Below, piece by piece: positions 7,732 to 15,422 of a stretch of DNA of 20,784 nt. The stretch is taken from the IMG/VR virus record IMGVR_UViG_3300042991_000148, positions 1 to 20,784 of that record, one strand, 5' to 3'. The notes under the pieces were generated by a model. The model was not told the DNA's origin. It was given only the letters and a program-made list of their open reading frames with translations, and ran no database searches. Numbering within the stretch: the stretch's first letter is position 1; each line of letters begins with the position of its first letter. This stretch comes from a virus. A program made the position numbers and the translations under genes.

Positions 7732-8029
7732 CTTTTATCTCCGATACTTGGTTGTTAATAATAAACATGGCTTCAATAAATTTATGACTTTCATTGATCC
7801 AGCCTTTTCCGTTCGGCAATTTGTTTTCTTTCCATAATGAATAAGCATTTATATATTCCTTGCTTGAAACAGTTGATATAGAACTTGGACACCTATTAAA
7901 AGAATAATCGCCAAGCTTCCATTTGTTCGGTATTGGACTATCTTCTTTACATCCACGATCCACCTTTGCATATTCACTACATTTGCGACAATCAAGCCCG
8001 ATATGCAGAGCTAAAACTGTCGCTAAGAG
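7718..8029 (-). CDS. T-part of tail assembly chaperone, made by -1 frameshift (GT extension)
   Basis: This frame has no convincing start of its own: the only candidate in the first half is a GTG at 7963. It is open upstream to 8038, inside the end of the G-like gene. Translation is expected through a -1 slip at the A_AAA_AAC heptamer, adding 103 residues (LLATVLALHIGLDC...) to 105 residues of G, giving a 208-aa GT protein. Numbered in the fusion, Cys119, Cys122, Cys132 and Cys152 (DCRKCSEY, RGCKED, NRCPSS) form a possible metal site. In lambda, gpG and gpGT coat the tape measure and recruit tube subunits during assembly and are absent from the finished tail. The gene ends 14 bases inside the tape measure start. 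Confidence 0.85.
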   Translation of the reverse strand, partial: LLATVLALHIGLDCRKCSEYAKVDRGCKEDSPIPNKWKLGDYSFNRCPSSISTVSSKEYINAYSLWKENKLPNGKGWINESHKFIEAMFIINNQVSEIKDDRQ

Positions 8030-8035
8030 TTTTTT
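7985..8035 (-). promoter_or_regulatory. Programmed -1 ribosomal frameshift site with stem-loop
   Basis: The heptamer A_AAA_AAC (8035-8029) is in the correct phase of the G-like frame (ATA AAA AAC TCT TAG). A 5-base spacer (TCTTA) is followed by a stem starting at the last base of the stop codon: GCGACA (8023-8018) pairs perfectly with TGTCGC (7990-7985). The pairing extends by G-U, U-A and U-G. A second inner stem, AGCTC with GGGCT, closes an 8-base loop. The -1 frame is closed by TGA at 8041-8039 and the zero frame by TAG at 8025-8023, so the slip must happen in this short overlap, which contains the heptamer. Confidence 0.9.
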
Positions 8036-8343
8036 ATTTCACCTTCGGTCAATACCGAAAGTTGCATAATTTTTTTGCCAAGTTCAACAAAGACCATTGG
8101 AGGAATTGTTTTTAAGAAATCATCTGAAAAAGAAAATTCCTTTGTATAATGCTCAACTCCTTTTAATCCGTTCTTTACTGCTTCTGCTAGAGCTTCTTCT
8201 GCTTGTCCTGCTTCGCTCATTTTGCCAACTCTAGTAAATGTCTTGTAATCTAAAGAACAAAGTTTCCAAATGGTTTTTACTTCACCTTTATCGTAAATGC
8301 TAATAAAATTTTCTGCTTCGTTAACATCAATTCCTGTGATCAT
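8023..8343 (-). CDS. Tail assembly chaperone, G-like
   Basis: The 106-aa product lies between the tail tube gene and the tape measure gene, the conserved place of lambda G. It starts at an ATG with GGGAGG 5 bases upstream. It is a small, mostly helical, acidic protein (EAGQAEEALAEAVKNGL, FSDDFLKTIPPMVFVELGKK) with no signal or membrane segment. Its last codons contain the slippery sequence that gives the longer GT form, so most ribosomes should make G and a minority GT. The ratio of the two forms is important for tail assembly in lambda. The family is assigned by position, size and the frameshift arrangement rather than by sequence motif. Confidence 0.85.
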   Translation of the reverse strand: MITGIDVNEAENFISIYDKGEVKTIWKLCSLDYKTFTRVGKMSEAGQAEEALAEAVKNGLKGVEHYTKEFSFSDDFLKTIPPMVFVELGKKIMQLSVLTEGEIKNS

Positions 8344-8363: not shown

Positions 8364-9302
8364 TTATGAAAATACAATATTAAAAGCATCGGATCCAGAA
8401 TTCGCAGAAGCTTCACCTGATACGTTTTCAATCAGGATGCCTTCACGATCTCCGTAGGCAATATCGGTAATATTAAACTTTGGAACATTAAGAGTAATAA
8501 TGTTTCCTGCTGCTCTTGTTGCTACAACTGCAACTGCTCTTGGAGTTGTCAATAGATCAGCTTCAAATGTATATGAAGTTTCAATTTGACATTCTGGATC
8601 AATCGTTACTTTTGGGTTATAGCCAACGATCTCAAACCCAGCAACTCCTGTAGTTGTATTTAAAGACGCTCTTTTAGCAAGCTCAATGCCGAAATCAATT
8701 TCAACTGTTTGAGCAACTAAAGTTGTCTTTGCATTATAAGCAAATAAACTTGATTTGCAAACAGGAGGAAGATTGACTGTTGACTCATAAGTTACTGTTG
8801 CTGGCAAAACAGCAACCGATGCAGCAGCATAAAGCCCTTTCATCGTAACTTCCATGACGCAAGTCTTTCCTGCGGTGTAAGTAATCTTTGCATTAGCAAC
8901 CTTTGCGCCTGTGATAATATGAAGCCTGCCATCAATATAAACGTAAAGCGTTACGGAACTTATTGTGCCAACAGAAACTGTATATGTTACTGATGAACCA
9001 CTTTGAACTGTTTCTTCTAATCTTGCTGCTTTAAGAATTGCACCAATACGAGGGGCAAGAGCAACTGAACCAGAGCCGATCATATCAATTTTAAAAGATA
9101 CTTCAGCATAACTCTCGCCTTTGATTGACGGTTTTTTGTCAAAGAATTTCCATGCCACATTTCTTTCTAAGGTTTCGTGGACAAGCTTAACGTTAACATC
9201 CATAACCAGCAAAGCATCTACTGTGGGGGAAGGAGTTGGATCCGTTCCATAAACAGACTCTATCTTTGCTAACAATACTGATTGCTTCGAATGCATTACC
9301 AT
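8364..9302 (-). CDS. Major tail tube protein (Phage_tube_2-like)
   Basis: The 312-aa protein has the N-terminal pattern LLAKIESVYGTDPTPSPTVDALLV typical of this tail tube group, followed by a long beta-rich chain ending in ENVSGEASANSGSDAFNIVF. It forms the stacked hexameric rings of the non-contractile tube. It lies directly before the G/GT chaperones and tape measure, as lambda V does. The middle section (TVSVGTISSVTLYVYIDG to YTAGKTCVMEVTMKG) looks like the usual tube beta-sandwich. A strong AAGGAG site lies 7 bases before the chosen ATG; the next in-frame ATG, two codons on, is worse placed. No contractile sheath gene is present, supporting a siphovirus morphology. Confidence 0.85.
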   Translation of the reverse strand: MVMHSKQSVLLAKIESVYGTDPTPSPTVDALLVMDVNVKLVHETLERNVAWKFFDKKPSIKGESYAEVSFKIDMIGSGSVALAPRIGAILKAARLEETVQSGSSVTYTVSVGTISSVTLYVYIDGRLHIITGAKVANAKITYTAGKTCVMEVTMKGLYAAASVAVLPATVTYESTVNLPPVCKSSLFAYNAKTTLVAQTVEIDFGIELAKRASLNTTTGVAGFEIVGYNPKVTIDPECQIETSYTFEADLLTTPRAVAVVATRAAGNIITLNVPKFNITDIAYGDREGILIENVSGEASANSGSDAFNIVFS

Positions 9303-10671: not shown

Positions 10672-10955
10672 TTATCCTCTTTGTTGAGATTAGGATCTTT
10701 ACTCTCATCAACAACAATTTCTCCATCTTTAGCGATCGCCTTTGACAATTCAATCCCTGACTTTACCGCATCTTCAGCGTATTTATCTAAAAGCAACTCT
10801 TGAAGAATATCAACAATGTAAATTAATATTTCTTCTGGATTTTCAATTACATCATCAATGTCGATCTCTTTTATTAATGAATCAATATCTTTTTCAACGC
10901 CTAGTTTGATTTCATCTATCTTATTAAGATGTTTATGTATAATCTGATCAAGCAT
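10668..10955 (-). CDS. Small acidic helical protein of unknown function
   Basis: I chose the ATG giving 95 aa (MLDQIIHKHLNK). It overlaps the glycosyltransferase stop as ATGCTTGA and has GGAAG 7 bases upstream. A GTG 15 codons earlier (11000) is possible but has a weaker site and a longer overlap. The protein is acidic and helical, with an amphipathic N-terminus (KIDEIKLGVEKDIDSLIKEI), a central hydrophobic part (EEILIYIVDILQELLLDKYA) and a charged tail (DESKDPNLNKEDK). No known motif is seen. It lies among neck genes and could be a connector or assembly helper, but the sequence does not show which. Confidence 0.7.
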   Translation of the reverse strand: MLDQIIHKHLNKIDEIKLGVEKDIDSLIKEIDIDDVIENPEEILIYIVDILQELLLDKYAEDAVKSGIELSKAIAKDGEIVVDESKDPNLNKEDK

Positions 10956-11646
10956 TTTGAAGCTTCCATTTCTCTTTAAAATACTTTGCTCTCTCGCCAC
11001 AAGTTCTCATATAAGTTTCGTGTCCCATAATTCTAATCGAAGAATTAATCTTATGGTAGTAACGACCTGCTGGGCTATTAATATGGCAATGGTATTGTTT
11101 AATACCTCTTGCTTTCATTTCGTTAAAGAAATCAAGGTCTTCAAATCCGTAACCAGCACCATAGTTTTCATCGAACATAGCTCCTTTGTCAAAAACACTC
11201 TTACGATACATACCATAGTAACAGCAGTGAGCGGTATTTTCTTCAACTTGAACGATCTCTTTGCAATACGTTTCATGATGAACTTGTCCATTCTTATTTT
11301 CTTGATTTATCCACTTATTAGCATGAAATCCTAAAGCTTCTATTTCTGGATGTTCTTCCATATAATTTAAAAGACATCTAATAGAATTAGGAACAGGCAT
11401 TATATCACCATCAAGCAAAAGAATGAAATCACCTTTAGAAGCCCTTATCCCTTGATTTTTCCCAACAGAAATGCCTTTGTTTTCGCTATTCTTGATAGTA
11501 GCCACATCTTGACACCCATCTATTGAGCCGTTATCAACAATAATAACTTCATAATCAAGACCTTGAAGCTCATTAGCTAAGACATGAAGCGTCTTATGAA
11601 GTATATCCCAAGTATTCCAAGTTAAGATATTAACGCTAAGTTTCAT
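10948..11646 (-). CDS. Family 2 (GT-A fold) glycosyltransferase
   Basis: The 232-aa protein has the ordered motifs of a nucleotide-sugar glycosyltransferase. The N-terminal strand SVNILTWN is followed by IIVDNGSIDG (about 35-44), NKGISVGKNQGI (about 56-67), the metal-binding DGD at 79-81 within LLLDGDIMP, and an acidic GFEDLDFF (about 167-174), the usual place of the general base. A cluster of Cys/Tyr residues (HCCYYGMYRKS) lies between. It has no membrane segment, so it is cytosolic, unlike the membrane-anchored GT2 enzymes of serotype conversion. It overlaps both neighbours by a few bases and is co-transcribed with neck genes, which favours modification of a virion protein or another late intracellular target. 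The sugar and acceptor cannot be told from sequence. Confidence 0.9.
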   Translation of the reverse strand: MKLSVNILTWNTWDILHKTLHVLANELQGLDYEVIIVDNGSIDGCQDVATIKNSENKGISVGKNQGIRASKGDFILLLDGDIMPVPNSIRCLLNYMEEHPEIEALGFHANKWINQENKNGQVHHETYCKEIVQVEENTAHCCYYGMYRKSVFDKGAMFDENYGAGYGFEDLDFFNEMKARGIKQYHCHINSPAGRYYHKINSSIRIMGHETYMRTCGERAKYFKEKWKLQNA

Positions 11647-12542
11647 CCTCTAAATATCCTTATTGAGTTTGAACTTTGAGCTTCTTCATCTGTGCCATCA
11701 ATAAAGCCTGATTCGTCTTCATCATATTCAAGTTTCATACCCTGAAAAGCGTCTTGATATTTCTTCCAGTAAGTTTCTGATAACTTTTCAAACTTATCGC
11801 CAACTTCTGTCATTAAGTCTAAGCAAATAAAATGCACTGTTAAATAGATCAAAGCAAATTTAATCTGTGAGCTTTCAAGAATTAATTCATGACGTTTACC
11901 CATAGAATAAAGAGCGTCCTCAATCTTCTCAAAACTCTGTTTAATCTTTTTAGTAAATGATCTTATAACTCTATAAATGCTCGTTGTATCGGGTGTTGTT
12001 GCAAAAGCTGGATCCACGGAAATAACTCCTGTAGACGAAACAAAATCTGTAATATCTCTTATTTGCCCTGAACCTGTTCCTGACAAAATCTCGATAACAC
12101 CACCTGTCCAAAAGTCATCTTCTTCTTTGCGCTTTGTATCAGTTAAAGAAGTTGTTGCACCTGCTGTTGCTGTTCCTCTTTCTTGCTTATTTGCTTTACG
12201 TAAACTATCCAGCTCATTATATAGATCTTCATCAGTGATCGGGATAGATAGAATACTTTTAACAACATCGAAAAGCTGATTTTCATAATAAGTAATACCA
12301 CCAGAAATATATGTCCATACTGCTTTATAGTTTAGATCTATATCGGCTGTATGAATTGCTGTTAAAGCATAAGTCATTTCGCCTGTTGTTGAGTTTACCG
12401 TCGCAGCAATTTCTGCTTGTAAAACATTACCGCTCGATGAATATAAAGTAATCGTTCCCGAGGTTGGAACAATCGGTCTATTGTTTGAATAAATGGTTAT
12501 TCTTATTGTATCTGTTTTATCTTCAAGGAATTGTTGTTTCAT
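11643..12542 (-). CDS. Probable head-tail adaptor with N-terminal Ig-like domain and EF-hand-like loop
   Basis: The 299-aa protein has three parts. Residues 1-95 form an Ig-like beta domain (DTIRITIYSNNRPIVPTSG, TTGEMTYALTAIHT, ending ENQLFDVVKS). A second small beta unit (about 150-195) has ILSGTGSGQIRDITDF and VDPAF-TTPDTTSIYRV, a pattern seen in several phage structural proteins. Residues 198-270 are helical (IKFALIYLTVHFICLDLM, ETYWKKYQDAFQGMK), as in the helical-bundle adaptors that sit beneath the portal. Residues 274-285 (DEDESGFIDGTD) fit a calcium-binding EF-hand loop closely. The neck role is inferred from the helical C-terminus and from the neck genes that follow. It overlaps the lipoprotein stop as ATGA. 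Confidence 0.5.
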   Translation of the reverse strand: MKQQFLEDKTDTIRITIYSNNRPIVPTSGTITLYSSSGNVLQAEIAATVNSTTGEMTYALTAIHTADIDLNYKAVWTYISGGITYYENQLFDVVKSILSIPITDEDLYNELDSLRKANKQERGTATAGATTSLTDTKRKEEDDFWTGGVIEILSGTGSGQIRDITDFVSSTGVISVDPAFATTPDTTSIYRVIRSFTKKIKQSFEKIEDALYSMGKRHELILESSQIKFALIYLTVHFICLDLMTEVGDKFEKLSETYWKKYQDAFQGMKLEYDEDESGFIDGTDEEAQSSNSIRIFRG

Positions 12543-12742
12543 TTTCCCCTCTCAATTTTAACCTGCATAACTTCTTTTAAATACATAGCACTAAAACAAG
12601 TATCACCTTCGTTAGTGCCTTTATATATATCTTTTCCTGTAATAGGATAAAGAATTAAAGGTCTACCTGCGCAGCTTGACAATAGCATTGTTGATAACAG
12701 AAAGATCGCCGCTATCAATTGCTTCAAATGCTTCTTTAACAT
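12539..12742 (-). CDS. Small lipoprotein, o-spanin (Rz1-like) candidate
   Basis: I chose the ATG giving 67 aa because GAGGAG lies 10 bases upstream; a TTG 17 codons earlier is poorly supported. The N-terminus is a classic lipoprotein signal: basic MLKKHLKQ, a hydrophobic stretch, and the lipobox LSSC with Cys at position 24. The mature part is short (CAGRPLILYPITGKDIYKG to MQVKIERGK) and contains one further Cys. The gene starts inside the preceding 58-aa membrane protein gene in another frame, overlapping it by 80 bases, the hallmark arrangement of Rz/Rz1-type spanin pairs that fuse inner and outer membranes at lysis. The mature part lacks the Pro-rich character of lambda Rz1, so the lipoprotein call is firm and the o-spanin role is an inference. 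Confidence 0.7.
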   Translation of the reverse strand: MLKKHLKQLIAAIFLLSTMLLSSCAGRPLILYPITGKDIYKGTNEGDTCFSAMYLKEVMQVKIERGK

Positions 12743-12839
12743 TAACTTTATTCTCCTCTTTTCGAGCGGTATCATTACTAAATTTCTTCCCAAGAATAAG
12801 AATAAATAACTGAATGATACCGCATATTACCTGAAGCAT
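12663..12839 (-). CDS. Small membrane protein, i-spanin-like candidate
   Basis: This 58-aa frame starts with an ATG overlapping the holin-candidate stop as TAATG, so it can be translated by coupling. The N-terminus MLQVICGIIQLFILILGKKF is one hydrophobic segment followed by Lys residues. The rest is hydrophilic and helical (ARKEENKVNVKEAFEAI, then VINNAIVKLRR). That is the layout of an i-spanin: one membrane anchor and a periplasmic helix. Its last 80 bases overlap the lipoprotein gene in a different frame. It is much shorter than lambda Rz, so the pair would have a short reach, and a different small lysis or structural role cannot be excluded. The full-length open frame with a coupled start supports a real gene. 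Confidence 0.55.
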   Translation of the reverse strand: MLQVICGIIQLFILILGKKFSNDTARKEENKVNVKEAFEAIDSGDLSVINNAIVKLRR

Positions 12840-13033
12840 TACTCTGGTCTTTTCTCAGGTGTCGGTGTATTCAATGCAATATACTTACTAAGGAATTTAA
12901 TGACCCCGAGCAATATATTGTCATCTGATAAAGTAGGCGTCAATTTTACGATAATTGAAACACCTGCGATAATGTAAGCAATCGTTTGAGCGATCGCTTC
13001 CCAATTTGTTATGAACCATTGCACTATTTCCAT
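12839..13033 (-). CDS. Holin candidate with one clear transmembrane segment
   Basis: The 64-aa protein starts at an ATG with a very strong AAAGGAGG site 4 bases upstream. Residues about 9-31 (NWEAIAQTIAYIIAGVSIIV) form a transmembrane helix, followed by KLTPTLSDDNILLGVIKFLS, a pattern I associate with small phage holin-like proteins, and a charged C-terminus (TPEKRPE). Holins form lesions in the inner membrane that time lysis. The neighbours, a second small membrane protein, an i-spanin-like protein and a lipoprotein, form a lysis-like cluster. A second hydrophobic stretch (about 41-53) is too short and polar to be sure of as a membrane span. Confidence 0.65.
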   Translation of the reverse strand: MEIVQWFITNWEAIAQTIAYIIAGVSIIVKLTPTLSDDNILLGVIKFLSKYIALNTPTPEKRPE

Positions 13034-13046
13034 TTTTCCTCCTTTG

Positions 13047-13187
13047 TTAAACTGTTTCCCAATATGATTCCATATAACAATCTAGACAAATATAAATCAT
13101 TGTCCTTTTCCCATCAATGTTAATCCATACTCTTTTAACAGCCAAACATTTGCAATTTTTTCTTTCACAAAAGATCTTCTCTTCCAT
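13047..13187 (-). CDS. 46-aa Cys-rich protein, putative zinc ribbon
   Basis: This short frame starts with an ATG one base after the preceding stop (with AGAAG about 10 bases upstream, in the end of that gene) and ends 13 bases before the holin-candidate start, filling the gap exactly. The protein has five cysteines: Cys7, Cys12 and Cys14 (FCERKNCKCLAV), and Cys34 and Cys37 (YICLDCYME). The two knuckles, C-x4-C-x-C and C-x2-C, are about 20 residues apart, as in small zinc ribbons. Basic residues lie between (VKRVWINIDGKRT). It was checked codon by codon on the minus strand. No function is known; its place in the lysis cluster may be incidental. Confidence 0.6.
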   Translation of the reverse strand: MEEKIFCERKNCKCLAVKRVWINIDGKRTMIYICLDCYMESYWETV

Positions 13188-13188
13188 A

Positions 13189-13485
13189 TTATTTTCTTCT
13201 TATCCATTCCATAACAATGCAACCTATAATCAGACCAATAAATCCCCATAAAGCATAAATATTTCTTATTACCATATCCCACATTGGTTTTCTAGCTTCA
13301 CAAGGTAACCTATCAAGACGAGATATGATTATATTTTGAGTATTAATAATTTCTTTTTGATTATCTTTATATTCCTTCCGCCAAGTGATCGTTCCCTCAA
13401 CAAAATCTTTTAACTTCTCTTTTAGCACCGCAACCTCCGTATCATAGCTTCTTCTGTTGTGTTGTTGTTGAGTTTCTTCACTCAT
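13189..13485 (-). CDS. XhlA-like coiled-coil protein with C-terminal membrane anchor
   Basis: The 98-aa protein has a soluble helical N-terminal part (DTEVAVLKEKLKDFVEGT, KEYKDNQKEIINTQNIIISR) that should form a coiled coil. One transmembrane helix follows near the C-terminus (NIYALWGFIGLIIGCIVMEW), ending in Arg-Arg-Lys. This is the layout of the XhlA/hemolysin-type phage lysis proteins, which associate with the membrane and aid holin action. It overlaps the 646-aa appendage gene as ATGA. An antiholin or membrane-anchored helper is an alternative. The topology is clear; the precise lysis role is inferred from its neighbours. Confidence 0.6.
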   Translation of the reverse strand: MSEETQQQHNRRSYDTEVAVLKEKLKDFVEGTITWRKEYKDNQKEIINTQNIIISRLDRLPCEARKPMWDMVIRNIYALWGFIGLIIGCIVMEWIRRK

Positions 13486-15422
13486 ACCATTATCTCATCT
13501 TCTGTTCCGTTGCCTGAGTTGTAGATAAAGTCTAGTTGTTCGTCGCTAAGTGCTTCTGAGTAATAGAGAAAATTGTCAATGCTAGATGAATAGTTATTAC
13601 TTGATAATGCACTTTTAGCTAAATCAAAAAGAGTTACGCTTTGACTTAAATCTCCAAGCCATAATCCTGCATCGTTTCCACCTTGACTACTACCAACAGA
13701 AGAATTATTTAATTTCCCTGACAAGAGTGTTCCATTTTGAACTATTGAAATCATGTGAAAAGAAGTTTCATCTGGAACTACTGGTGATGTCCATCCATAA
13801 TTAGTTGAGGAGTCTTTATTTATATAAAAAATAAAATAATTCCCAGCAGTAGAATATAGAAGATAAAGATAAGAAGATAAATAGTGAGGATACCCATAAC
13901 AAAAAACAATCCCTTGGTCAGCAGTTGCATAAGGCTTAACCCACAGAATAATAGTTCCTTGACTGTCAGACTTTATGCCACTTATATAATTAGCAAGGTT
14001 TACTGAATATAATTTATTAAAATTAAATGCTTGATTTATCTTTCCAGATGCAGTCAATAAACTCGTATTCGCGCTAGCAGTCCCACTCTCACCTAAGCTC
14101 CCGACATTCTCCACAATCGTATTGGCTGCATTATCGTTGCACTTTAAGTGGATTTTTGGAAGTAAATAAGAAACAGTTTCAACAATCGGCAAATCTATAT
14201 TTGCACAAGGCTTTAAATTAAATCTTTCTATTTTATTTTCAAATGTAGAAACAATATTGCTTCTGATGTTAGTAATAAATCTTTTTGGTGCTGCTATAAT
14301 CCATGAAGCTTTAAGATCTCTTTCTGTAATTATAGGTTCCGTATACCTAATAAAATAAACTCTAATGTATTCGGGATAATGGCTTTCAGCAATGTTGTTG
14401 TTAGCCTTCACAAAGGCATTTGATATTGACCAAATATGTGTATGACTGTTTGTTGCTACTGTTGAACCAATAAAACTATTTTGCCCTAATTCTGTTCCCG
14501 TAGCAGAGCCAGCGGTCAGATTGTGAGCGTGATCTTTGGAATTGTGATTATGTTGTGTCGAACCTCCCGTCTGAATAATGTCTCCAAATCCAGAATATGC
14601 TCTGATAAACATTTCTCTCTGCCCTTCGACTTCGACCCAATTGGCAGGTATCGTAGACTTGGAATTTTTCCACATTCCGATAAAGCCTGTCTTGAGAGGA
14701 ATATTCCCTAATGCTGTGTTATACATGACAGCAAGAGAGGAATATGGAGGCAGTGAATCGGCATATTGAGTTTCAGGAGTTGTTAGAGAAAATGAAATCC
14801 TGTGAGTGTGGTTTTGAGATATAGCCCCACGACCTGTCCCTGTAATATTTCCAGTATCTGCAGATGACGAGTCAAAATCAGGATGAGCATGAGGGACGTT
14901 CGCAGTATGATAATGAGTATCTGAACCGCTAGTTCCACCTGCATTTGAACCTGTTTCTGCCCCTCGTATCATCTTTCTATGAGAAGCGGTGTGTTCAATA
15001 AATCCGTCTAAAGTCGTTGTCTCACAGAAACCACCCATGTTAAGAGGTAGGTCTGCTGTTCCGTCAGAAGAACATACGATAACATCATAGTAAGCAGGGC
15101 GGTTCTCTTTTTCCGCCCAATACCATTCTGTATTCTCCGTTCTTGTTTCTCCATCTAAATGTTTGTGGCTATCTGCGCAAACACTAAGACCAGGAGTTGC
15201 CTTGTTTTTTTCAGAGGATGTATCTGCAGATACGGAATGGGTATGCGTAATGTCTATCTCATGGCTATGGCTTTGTTGCCCTCCAGTGCCTCCGCCTGTC
15301 ATGTCAGAAGCGGAGCAGCCTGAAATGAACTTCTCATCAAAGTCCGTATCTCTGGGAAAAGCAGAGGGGACAGAGGCATGAGTACCGAAGTAAAGTAGTT
15401 TTACGTTAGTTGCTATTGACAT
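13482..15422 (-). CDS. Virion appendage protein with three His-rich collar-like modules and LamG-like C-terminus
   Basis: The 646-aa protein has three tandem modules, about 1-115, 116-245 and 246-362. Each contains a Gly/Thr/Ser-rich GGTGG-type stretch and HxH motifs, and ends in a PAYYDVIV, PPYSSLAV or YPEYIRVY segment. This is the pattern of tail collar / fibre tip domains (NxPPYxxLxY). Nine HxH motifs occur, exactly three per module (52-54, 60-62, 86-88; 170-172, 178-180, 205-207; 291-293, 298-300, 327-329). In T4 gp37 such motifs bind metal. Residues about 410-640 look like a concanavalin/LamG domain (HLKCNDNAANTIVENVG, TIILWVKPY, IDNFLYYSEALSDEQL). AAAGGA precedes the ATG. A sugar-binding appendage or fibre is likely; attachment to head or tail is uncertain, as it lies between head and neck genes. 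Confidence 0.7.
   Translation of the reverse strand: MSIATNVKLLYFGTHASVPSAFPRDTDFDEKFISGCSASDMTGGGTGGQQSHSHEIDITHTHSVSADTSSEKNKATPGLSVCADSHKHLDGETRTENTEWYWAEKENRPAYYDVIVCSSDGTADLPLNMGGFCETTTLDGFIEHTASHRKMIRGAETGSNAGGTSGSDTHYHTANVPHAHPDFDSSSADTGNITGTGRGAISQNHTHRISFSLTTPETQYADSLPPYSSLAVMYNTALGNIPLKTGFIGMWKNSKSTIPANWVEVEGQREMFIRAYSGFGDIIQTGGSTQHNHNSKDHAHNLTAGSATGTELGQNSFIGSTVATNSHTHIWSISNAFVKANNNIAESHYPEYIRVYFIRYTEPIITERDLKASWIIAAPKRFITNIRSNIVSTFENKIERFNLKPCANIDLPIVETVSYLLPKIHLKCNDNAANTIVENVGSLGESGTASANTSLLTASGKINQAFNFNKLYSVNLANYISGIKSDSQGTIILWVKPYATADQGIVFCYGYPHYLSSYLYLLYSTAGNYFIFYINKDSSTNYGWTSPVVPDETSFHMISIVQNGTLLSGKLNNSSVGSSQGGNDAGLWLGDLSQSVTLFDLAKSALSSNNYSSSIDNFLYYSEALSDEQLDFIYNSGNGTEDEIMV

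Follow-up and report, generated by a model that had tools for sequence, protein, structure and literature searches.

A pair of overlapping reading frames lying between the tail tube and tape measure genes of a tailed bacterial virus from IMG/VR (record IMGVR_UViG_3300042991_000148, of which the 20,784 nucleotides analysed are here called the window) very probably forms, to judge from its sequence, a -1 programmed frameshift site of the lambda G/GT type. This reading is based on the sequence anatomy of the site, the conservation of its heptamer and hairpin, the homology of both frames to frames in related phages, and the predicted chaperone fold of the G protein; the slip itself, its rate and the role of the GT product are what we infer. 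A preliminary description, made from the DNA alone, had called the site a textbook -1 frameshift joining two tail chaperones, and the conserved heptamer and covarying stem described below support that view of a slip that would occur here.

The mechanism is long known and ordinary in kind, and the chaperone family is absent from the protein-family libraries searched. A standard gene finder would call one short gene at this place and lose its second half, while a view of the whole family points to probable GT fusions where several phages, among them RcZahn, are annotated with separate hypothetical genes. A hairpin with real covariation also makes a useful training case for frameshift predictors.

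Anatomy and conservation of the slip site

Checked base by base, the 3' end of the zero frame reads ATA AAA AAC TCT TAG and gives the G protein a C-terminus of ...GEIKNS. The -1 frame is closed upstream by TGA at 8041-8039 and stays open down to the stop at 7720-7718. The TGA and the zero-frame TAG bound the slip exactly as first proposed, and the heptamer and five-base spacer likewise match the minus-strand reading, with A_AAA_AAC standing in the phase required for a tandem -1 slip (Table 1). G8023, said at the outset to serve as both the last base of the stop codon and the first base of the stem, does so. A slip here would produce a fusion with the junction ...EIKN-LLAT..., and the 208 aa originally predicted for it were reproduced from both frames.

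Table 1. Features of the predicted frameshift site and its neighbours in the window
Feature	Position	Strand	Basis or remark
Tail tube protein	8364-9302	minus	Pfam PF18906 4e-10; PHROG 290 3e-11
G-like tail assembly chaperone ORF	8343-8023	minus	zero frame, 106 aa, stop TAG 8025-8023
Slippery heptamer A_AAA_AAC	8035-8029	minus	letters AAAAAAC; in-phase heptamer at homologous point of relatives
Spacer TCTTA, 5 nt	8028-8024	minus	between heptamer and hairpin
T-like -1 frame, CxxC...C...CP domain	8029-7718	minus	103 aa after slip
Predicted stimulatory hairpin	8023-7985	minus	folding, recoding tests, covariation
Putative tape measure protein, 411 aa	6496-7731	minus	position; tape measure annotation at this place in related phages

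Heptamers of the form X_XXY_YYZ stand in phase at 23 of the 6251 codon positions in the genes of the window, and since only about four positions are available between the two stops, the chance of finding one there is about 1.5% (0.3% for A_AAA_AAN alone). A second in-phase AAAAAAC, at 15210 on the minus strand within a 646-aa fibre-like ORF (15422-13482), is probably incidental.

Relatives were collected mainly through the T protein. Used as a query, the T frame of the window found one relative directly and a two-row alignment found eight loci, while tblastn with T proteins reached the isolated phages JP1, P24, L338C, RHph_I4, Mae-JY22, RcZahn, RcTiptonus, RcDurkin and RHph_Y1_11. A search of IMG/VR proteins with G alone returned no relatives, a search of genome contigs with the T alignment gave no matches, and the wider alignments A2 and A3 proved too divergent to serve in a locus search. 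Seventeen other loci were examined (14 distinct, from about 12 lineages), all reached through protein similarity alone with no use of the heptamer. In every one of them a G frame lies upstream of T, which is in -1 relative to it, and the corresponding point holds a slippery heptamer in phase; the preliminary description had suggested checking related phages for just this. The commonest is A_AAA_AAC, with A_AAA_AAT occurring once (L003), A_AAA_AAG in RcTiptonus and RcDurkin, and G_GGA_AAC in the Rhizobium phages L338C and RHph_I4; this use of four different heptamers indicates that the motif is kept, and not merely the sequence. The zero-frame stop follows the heptamer immediately in most members of the family and comes one codon later in the window.

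Two DNA-pattern scans added many further members, whose use was confined to the analysis of the hairpin and of the proteins, the heptamer being part of the pattern. The conservation of the heptamer is tested only by the protein-found loci, because the sets of 47 and 26 sites discussed below were partly picked by such heptamer-bearing patterns; the T matches L046, L070, L082 and L093 all have A_AAA_AAC, as expected since the search pattern contained it.

The predicted stimulatory hairpin

Refolding returned the hairpin of the preliminary description, with its outer and inner stems at the right coordinates. The outer stem has 9 bp, formed by GCGACAGTT (8023-8015) with GATTGTCGC (7993-7985), and the inner stem pairs AGCTC (8012-8008) with GGGCT (7999-7995) around a loop of 8 nt (8007-8000). 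Its minimum free energy of -19.3 kcal/mol lies well below that of dinucleotide shuffles (z -4.63, with none of 200 as low) and of recodings that preserve the T-frame protein (z -3.36, with 3 of 300 as low); when the flanks out to 7940-8050 are included, the z of the whole stretch is only -0.9 and the hairpin is still in the centroid structure. Across 47 sites, mostly relatives more stable than their synonymous recodings, the median z is -2.36 and 27 sites fall below -2, with clear excess stability missing from the folded stretch of some relatives, such as L014, L011, L056, L049 and L208.

The compensatory stem changes that had been suggested as a check were found in the alignment of 26 distinct sites sharing one spacing from heptamer to Cys. 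Its 13 pairs are formed in 92.6% of cells, and RNAalifold recovers the identical 13 pairs from the same alignment. Changes on both sides occur at 7 of the 13 pairs, amounting to 35 such cells against 12.6 in shuffles, and none of 500 shuffles reaches the covariation score; sliding the partner by 1-3 columns, as a control, brings pairing below half. The window itself offers an example: its first conserved Cys codon is TGT where the others have TGC, and because the facing base has changed too, from G to A, the pair at the third base of this codon is kept (G-C to A-U).

A dnaX-like stimulator resembling a Shine-Dalgarno sequence upstream of the heptamer was considered and rejected: over 47 sites, anti-Shine-Dalgarno pairing there does not exceed that of synonymous recodings (mean z -0.19).

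The two proteins and their neighbourhood

G has no significant Pfam, NCBIfam or PHROGs profile match, and its homologue in relatives is the ORF preceding the T frame. The model predicted for G (pLDDT 80.6) matches YqbN (3klu, Z 7.7), 3fgx (6.8), the HK97 chaperone (2ob9, 6.7) and 5ir0 (6.0), the next match scoring 2.9, and 88-94 residues align with 3klu or 2ob9 at 8-12% identity. The model thereby suggests a tail-assembly-chaperone fold of the HK97/YqbN type, for which the match is support and not proof because Z is under 8. The naming of the two frames as G-like and T-like is borne out by this predicted fold, by their place with tail tube on one side and tape measure on the other, and by homologues in Rhodobacter phages that carry the annotation 'tail assembly chaperone'. 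In the relatives' phage records the G and T frames are annotated as separate genes, or T is unannotated.

The T part is a small, compact four-cysteine domain, and its cysteine pattern suggests that it may bind a metal such as zinc. Among 36 members C14, C17 and C47 are invariant, C27 is present in at least 90%, and a Pro follows the last Cys. The T model is confident (pLDDT 91.8), and neither PDB nor BFVD yielded a convincing match to it in a fold search. T has no significant match in Pfam or NCBIfam and none to a named family, PHROGs matches only the unnamed 10052 (2 of 36 members, best E 5e-4), and no description of the cysteine-bearing domain was found in the open-licence literature. We regard as evenly balanced the broader reading that this is a widespread unnamed chaperone family whose T part binds metal through four cysteines and whose hairpin doubles, along its 3' arm, as coding sequence for the first half of that site; the stimulator in the RNA and the metal-binding site in the protein would then be locked together.

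The genes are ordered tail tube, G, T and tape measure. The T frame runs at its end into the putative tape measure ORF, which has weak profile matches. At 411 aa this ORF is short, complete ORFs at this place in many relatives having about 470-660 aa, which would suggest a short tail. Further along the minus strand, a 232-aa glycosyltransferase-like ORF (10948-11646), by eye of family 2, lies within the structural gene block, and three small ORFs at 12539-13485, judged by eye from their translations, resemble lysis genes: one lipoprotein-like (84 aa), one membrane (64 aa) and one with a C-terminal membrane segment (98 aa).

Mechanism, alternatives and known systems

In the mechanism we propose, the majority of ribosomes would terminate at the TAG and release the G-type chaperone, while a minority would pause at the hairpin with tRNAs on AAA AAC, slip one base back onto AAA AAA and read on to 7718, yielding GT. 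If lambda is a guide, G would be in excess and GT the minority product; G would coat the tape measure protein, and the T portion of GT would bring in tail tube subunits. In lambda itself the tape measure is bound by G and the tail tube subunit by T (PMC5009743), the gpG/gpGT frameshift having been described by Levin 1993 and Xu 2004, 2013 and 2014, as cited in PMC5009743; measured frameshift rates in HK97-like tail chaperone genes are 6-7% (PMC3711429). Against the reading, A_AAA_AAC is less shift-prone than A_AAA_AAG in E. coli (PMC5009743), which may not be the host of this virus.

T might instead start independently as a gene of its own, perhaps by coupling to the G stop, and be made with no frameshift. 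Several phage records do list it as a separate short ORF, and ATG is the third T-frame codon after the slip in L007, L025, L098, L060 and L036. In RcZahn the annotated T gene begins at an ATG that overlaps the stop of G, and the paper on R. capsulatus phages says that the usual frameshift sequences are not clearly evident in this phage (PMC8601537). By alignment, RcZahn (L015, 1806-2228) has a homologous T frame and, at the corresponding point, A_AAA_AAC in phase, making it a candidate frameshift site where its authors reported none; its T may arise either way, because heptamer and ATG are both present. In the window, however, the T frame contains no ATG, GTG or TTG upstream of GTG 7963, in keeping with the earlier remark that it has no good start of its own, and this GTG lies downstream of the first two conserved T cysteines, so that a start there would drop the conserved CxxC. 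Many relatives likewise have no start codon before the first Cys, and coupling needs neither an in-phase heptamer nor a covarying hairpin. No relative was seen that combines a strong start for T with lack of the heptamer, a case named beforehand as evidence against a frameshift: those bearing a start all keep the heptamer, including L007, L025 and RcZahn, where the possible start lies just 3' of it. We consider a separate start very improbable.

It is just as hard to credit that the fusion arises through RNA polymerase slippage on the run of six A, altering the number of A in the mRNA, since the bacterial cases reviewed involve nine consecutive A or T, a longer run (PMC5009743), two Rhizobium phages have the non-homopolymer G_GGA_AAC at the same point, and a stem placed downstream, with its compensatory changes, is consistent with a stimulator of the ribosome. 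That the frame break is unprogrammed, the mark of a decayed or mis-sequenced gene, is the least credible account: a single contig might carry an error, but a break identical in place, and with the same type of motif, recurs across independent contigs and the complete genomes of isolated phages.

The ribosomal frameshift that we favour resembles lambda gpG/gpGT in having a pair of overlapping frames flanked by the tail tube and tape measure genes, a probable slip near the end of G, a presumed minority GT fusion and, by prediction, a chaperone fold for G. Lambda has the heptamer GGGAAAG and is not known to have a clear stimulatory hairpin, whereas the site described here combines A_AAA_AAC with a conserved hairpin and a four-cysteine T domain that has no similarity to a named library family. 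The HK97 chaperone and YqbN are alike in predicted G fold, at the Z scores given above, but differ in their low identity and in the absence of a sequence-profile match. Other counterparts, with homologous G and T frames and an in-phase heptamer, are the Rhodobacter phages RcTiptonus, RcDurkin and RcZahn, Agrobacterium phage JP1, the Rhizobium phages L338C, RHph_I4 and RHph_Y1_11, Alteromonas phage P24 and Microcystis phage Mae-JY22, although some of these, unlike the window, use A_AAA_AAG or G_GGA_AAC. E. coli dnaX shares the -1 slip on A_AAA_AAN (here a predicted one) with a stem-loop downstream; the sites studied here differ from it in having no excess of an upstream Shine-Dalgarno-like element, and dnaX is a cellular gene whose shift shortens its product, unlike the GT fusion predicted here.
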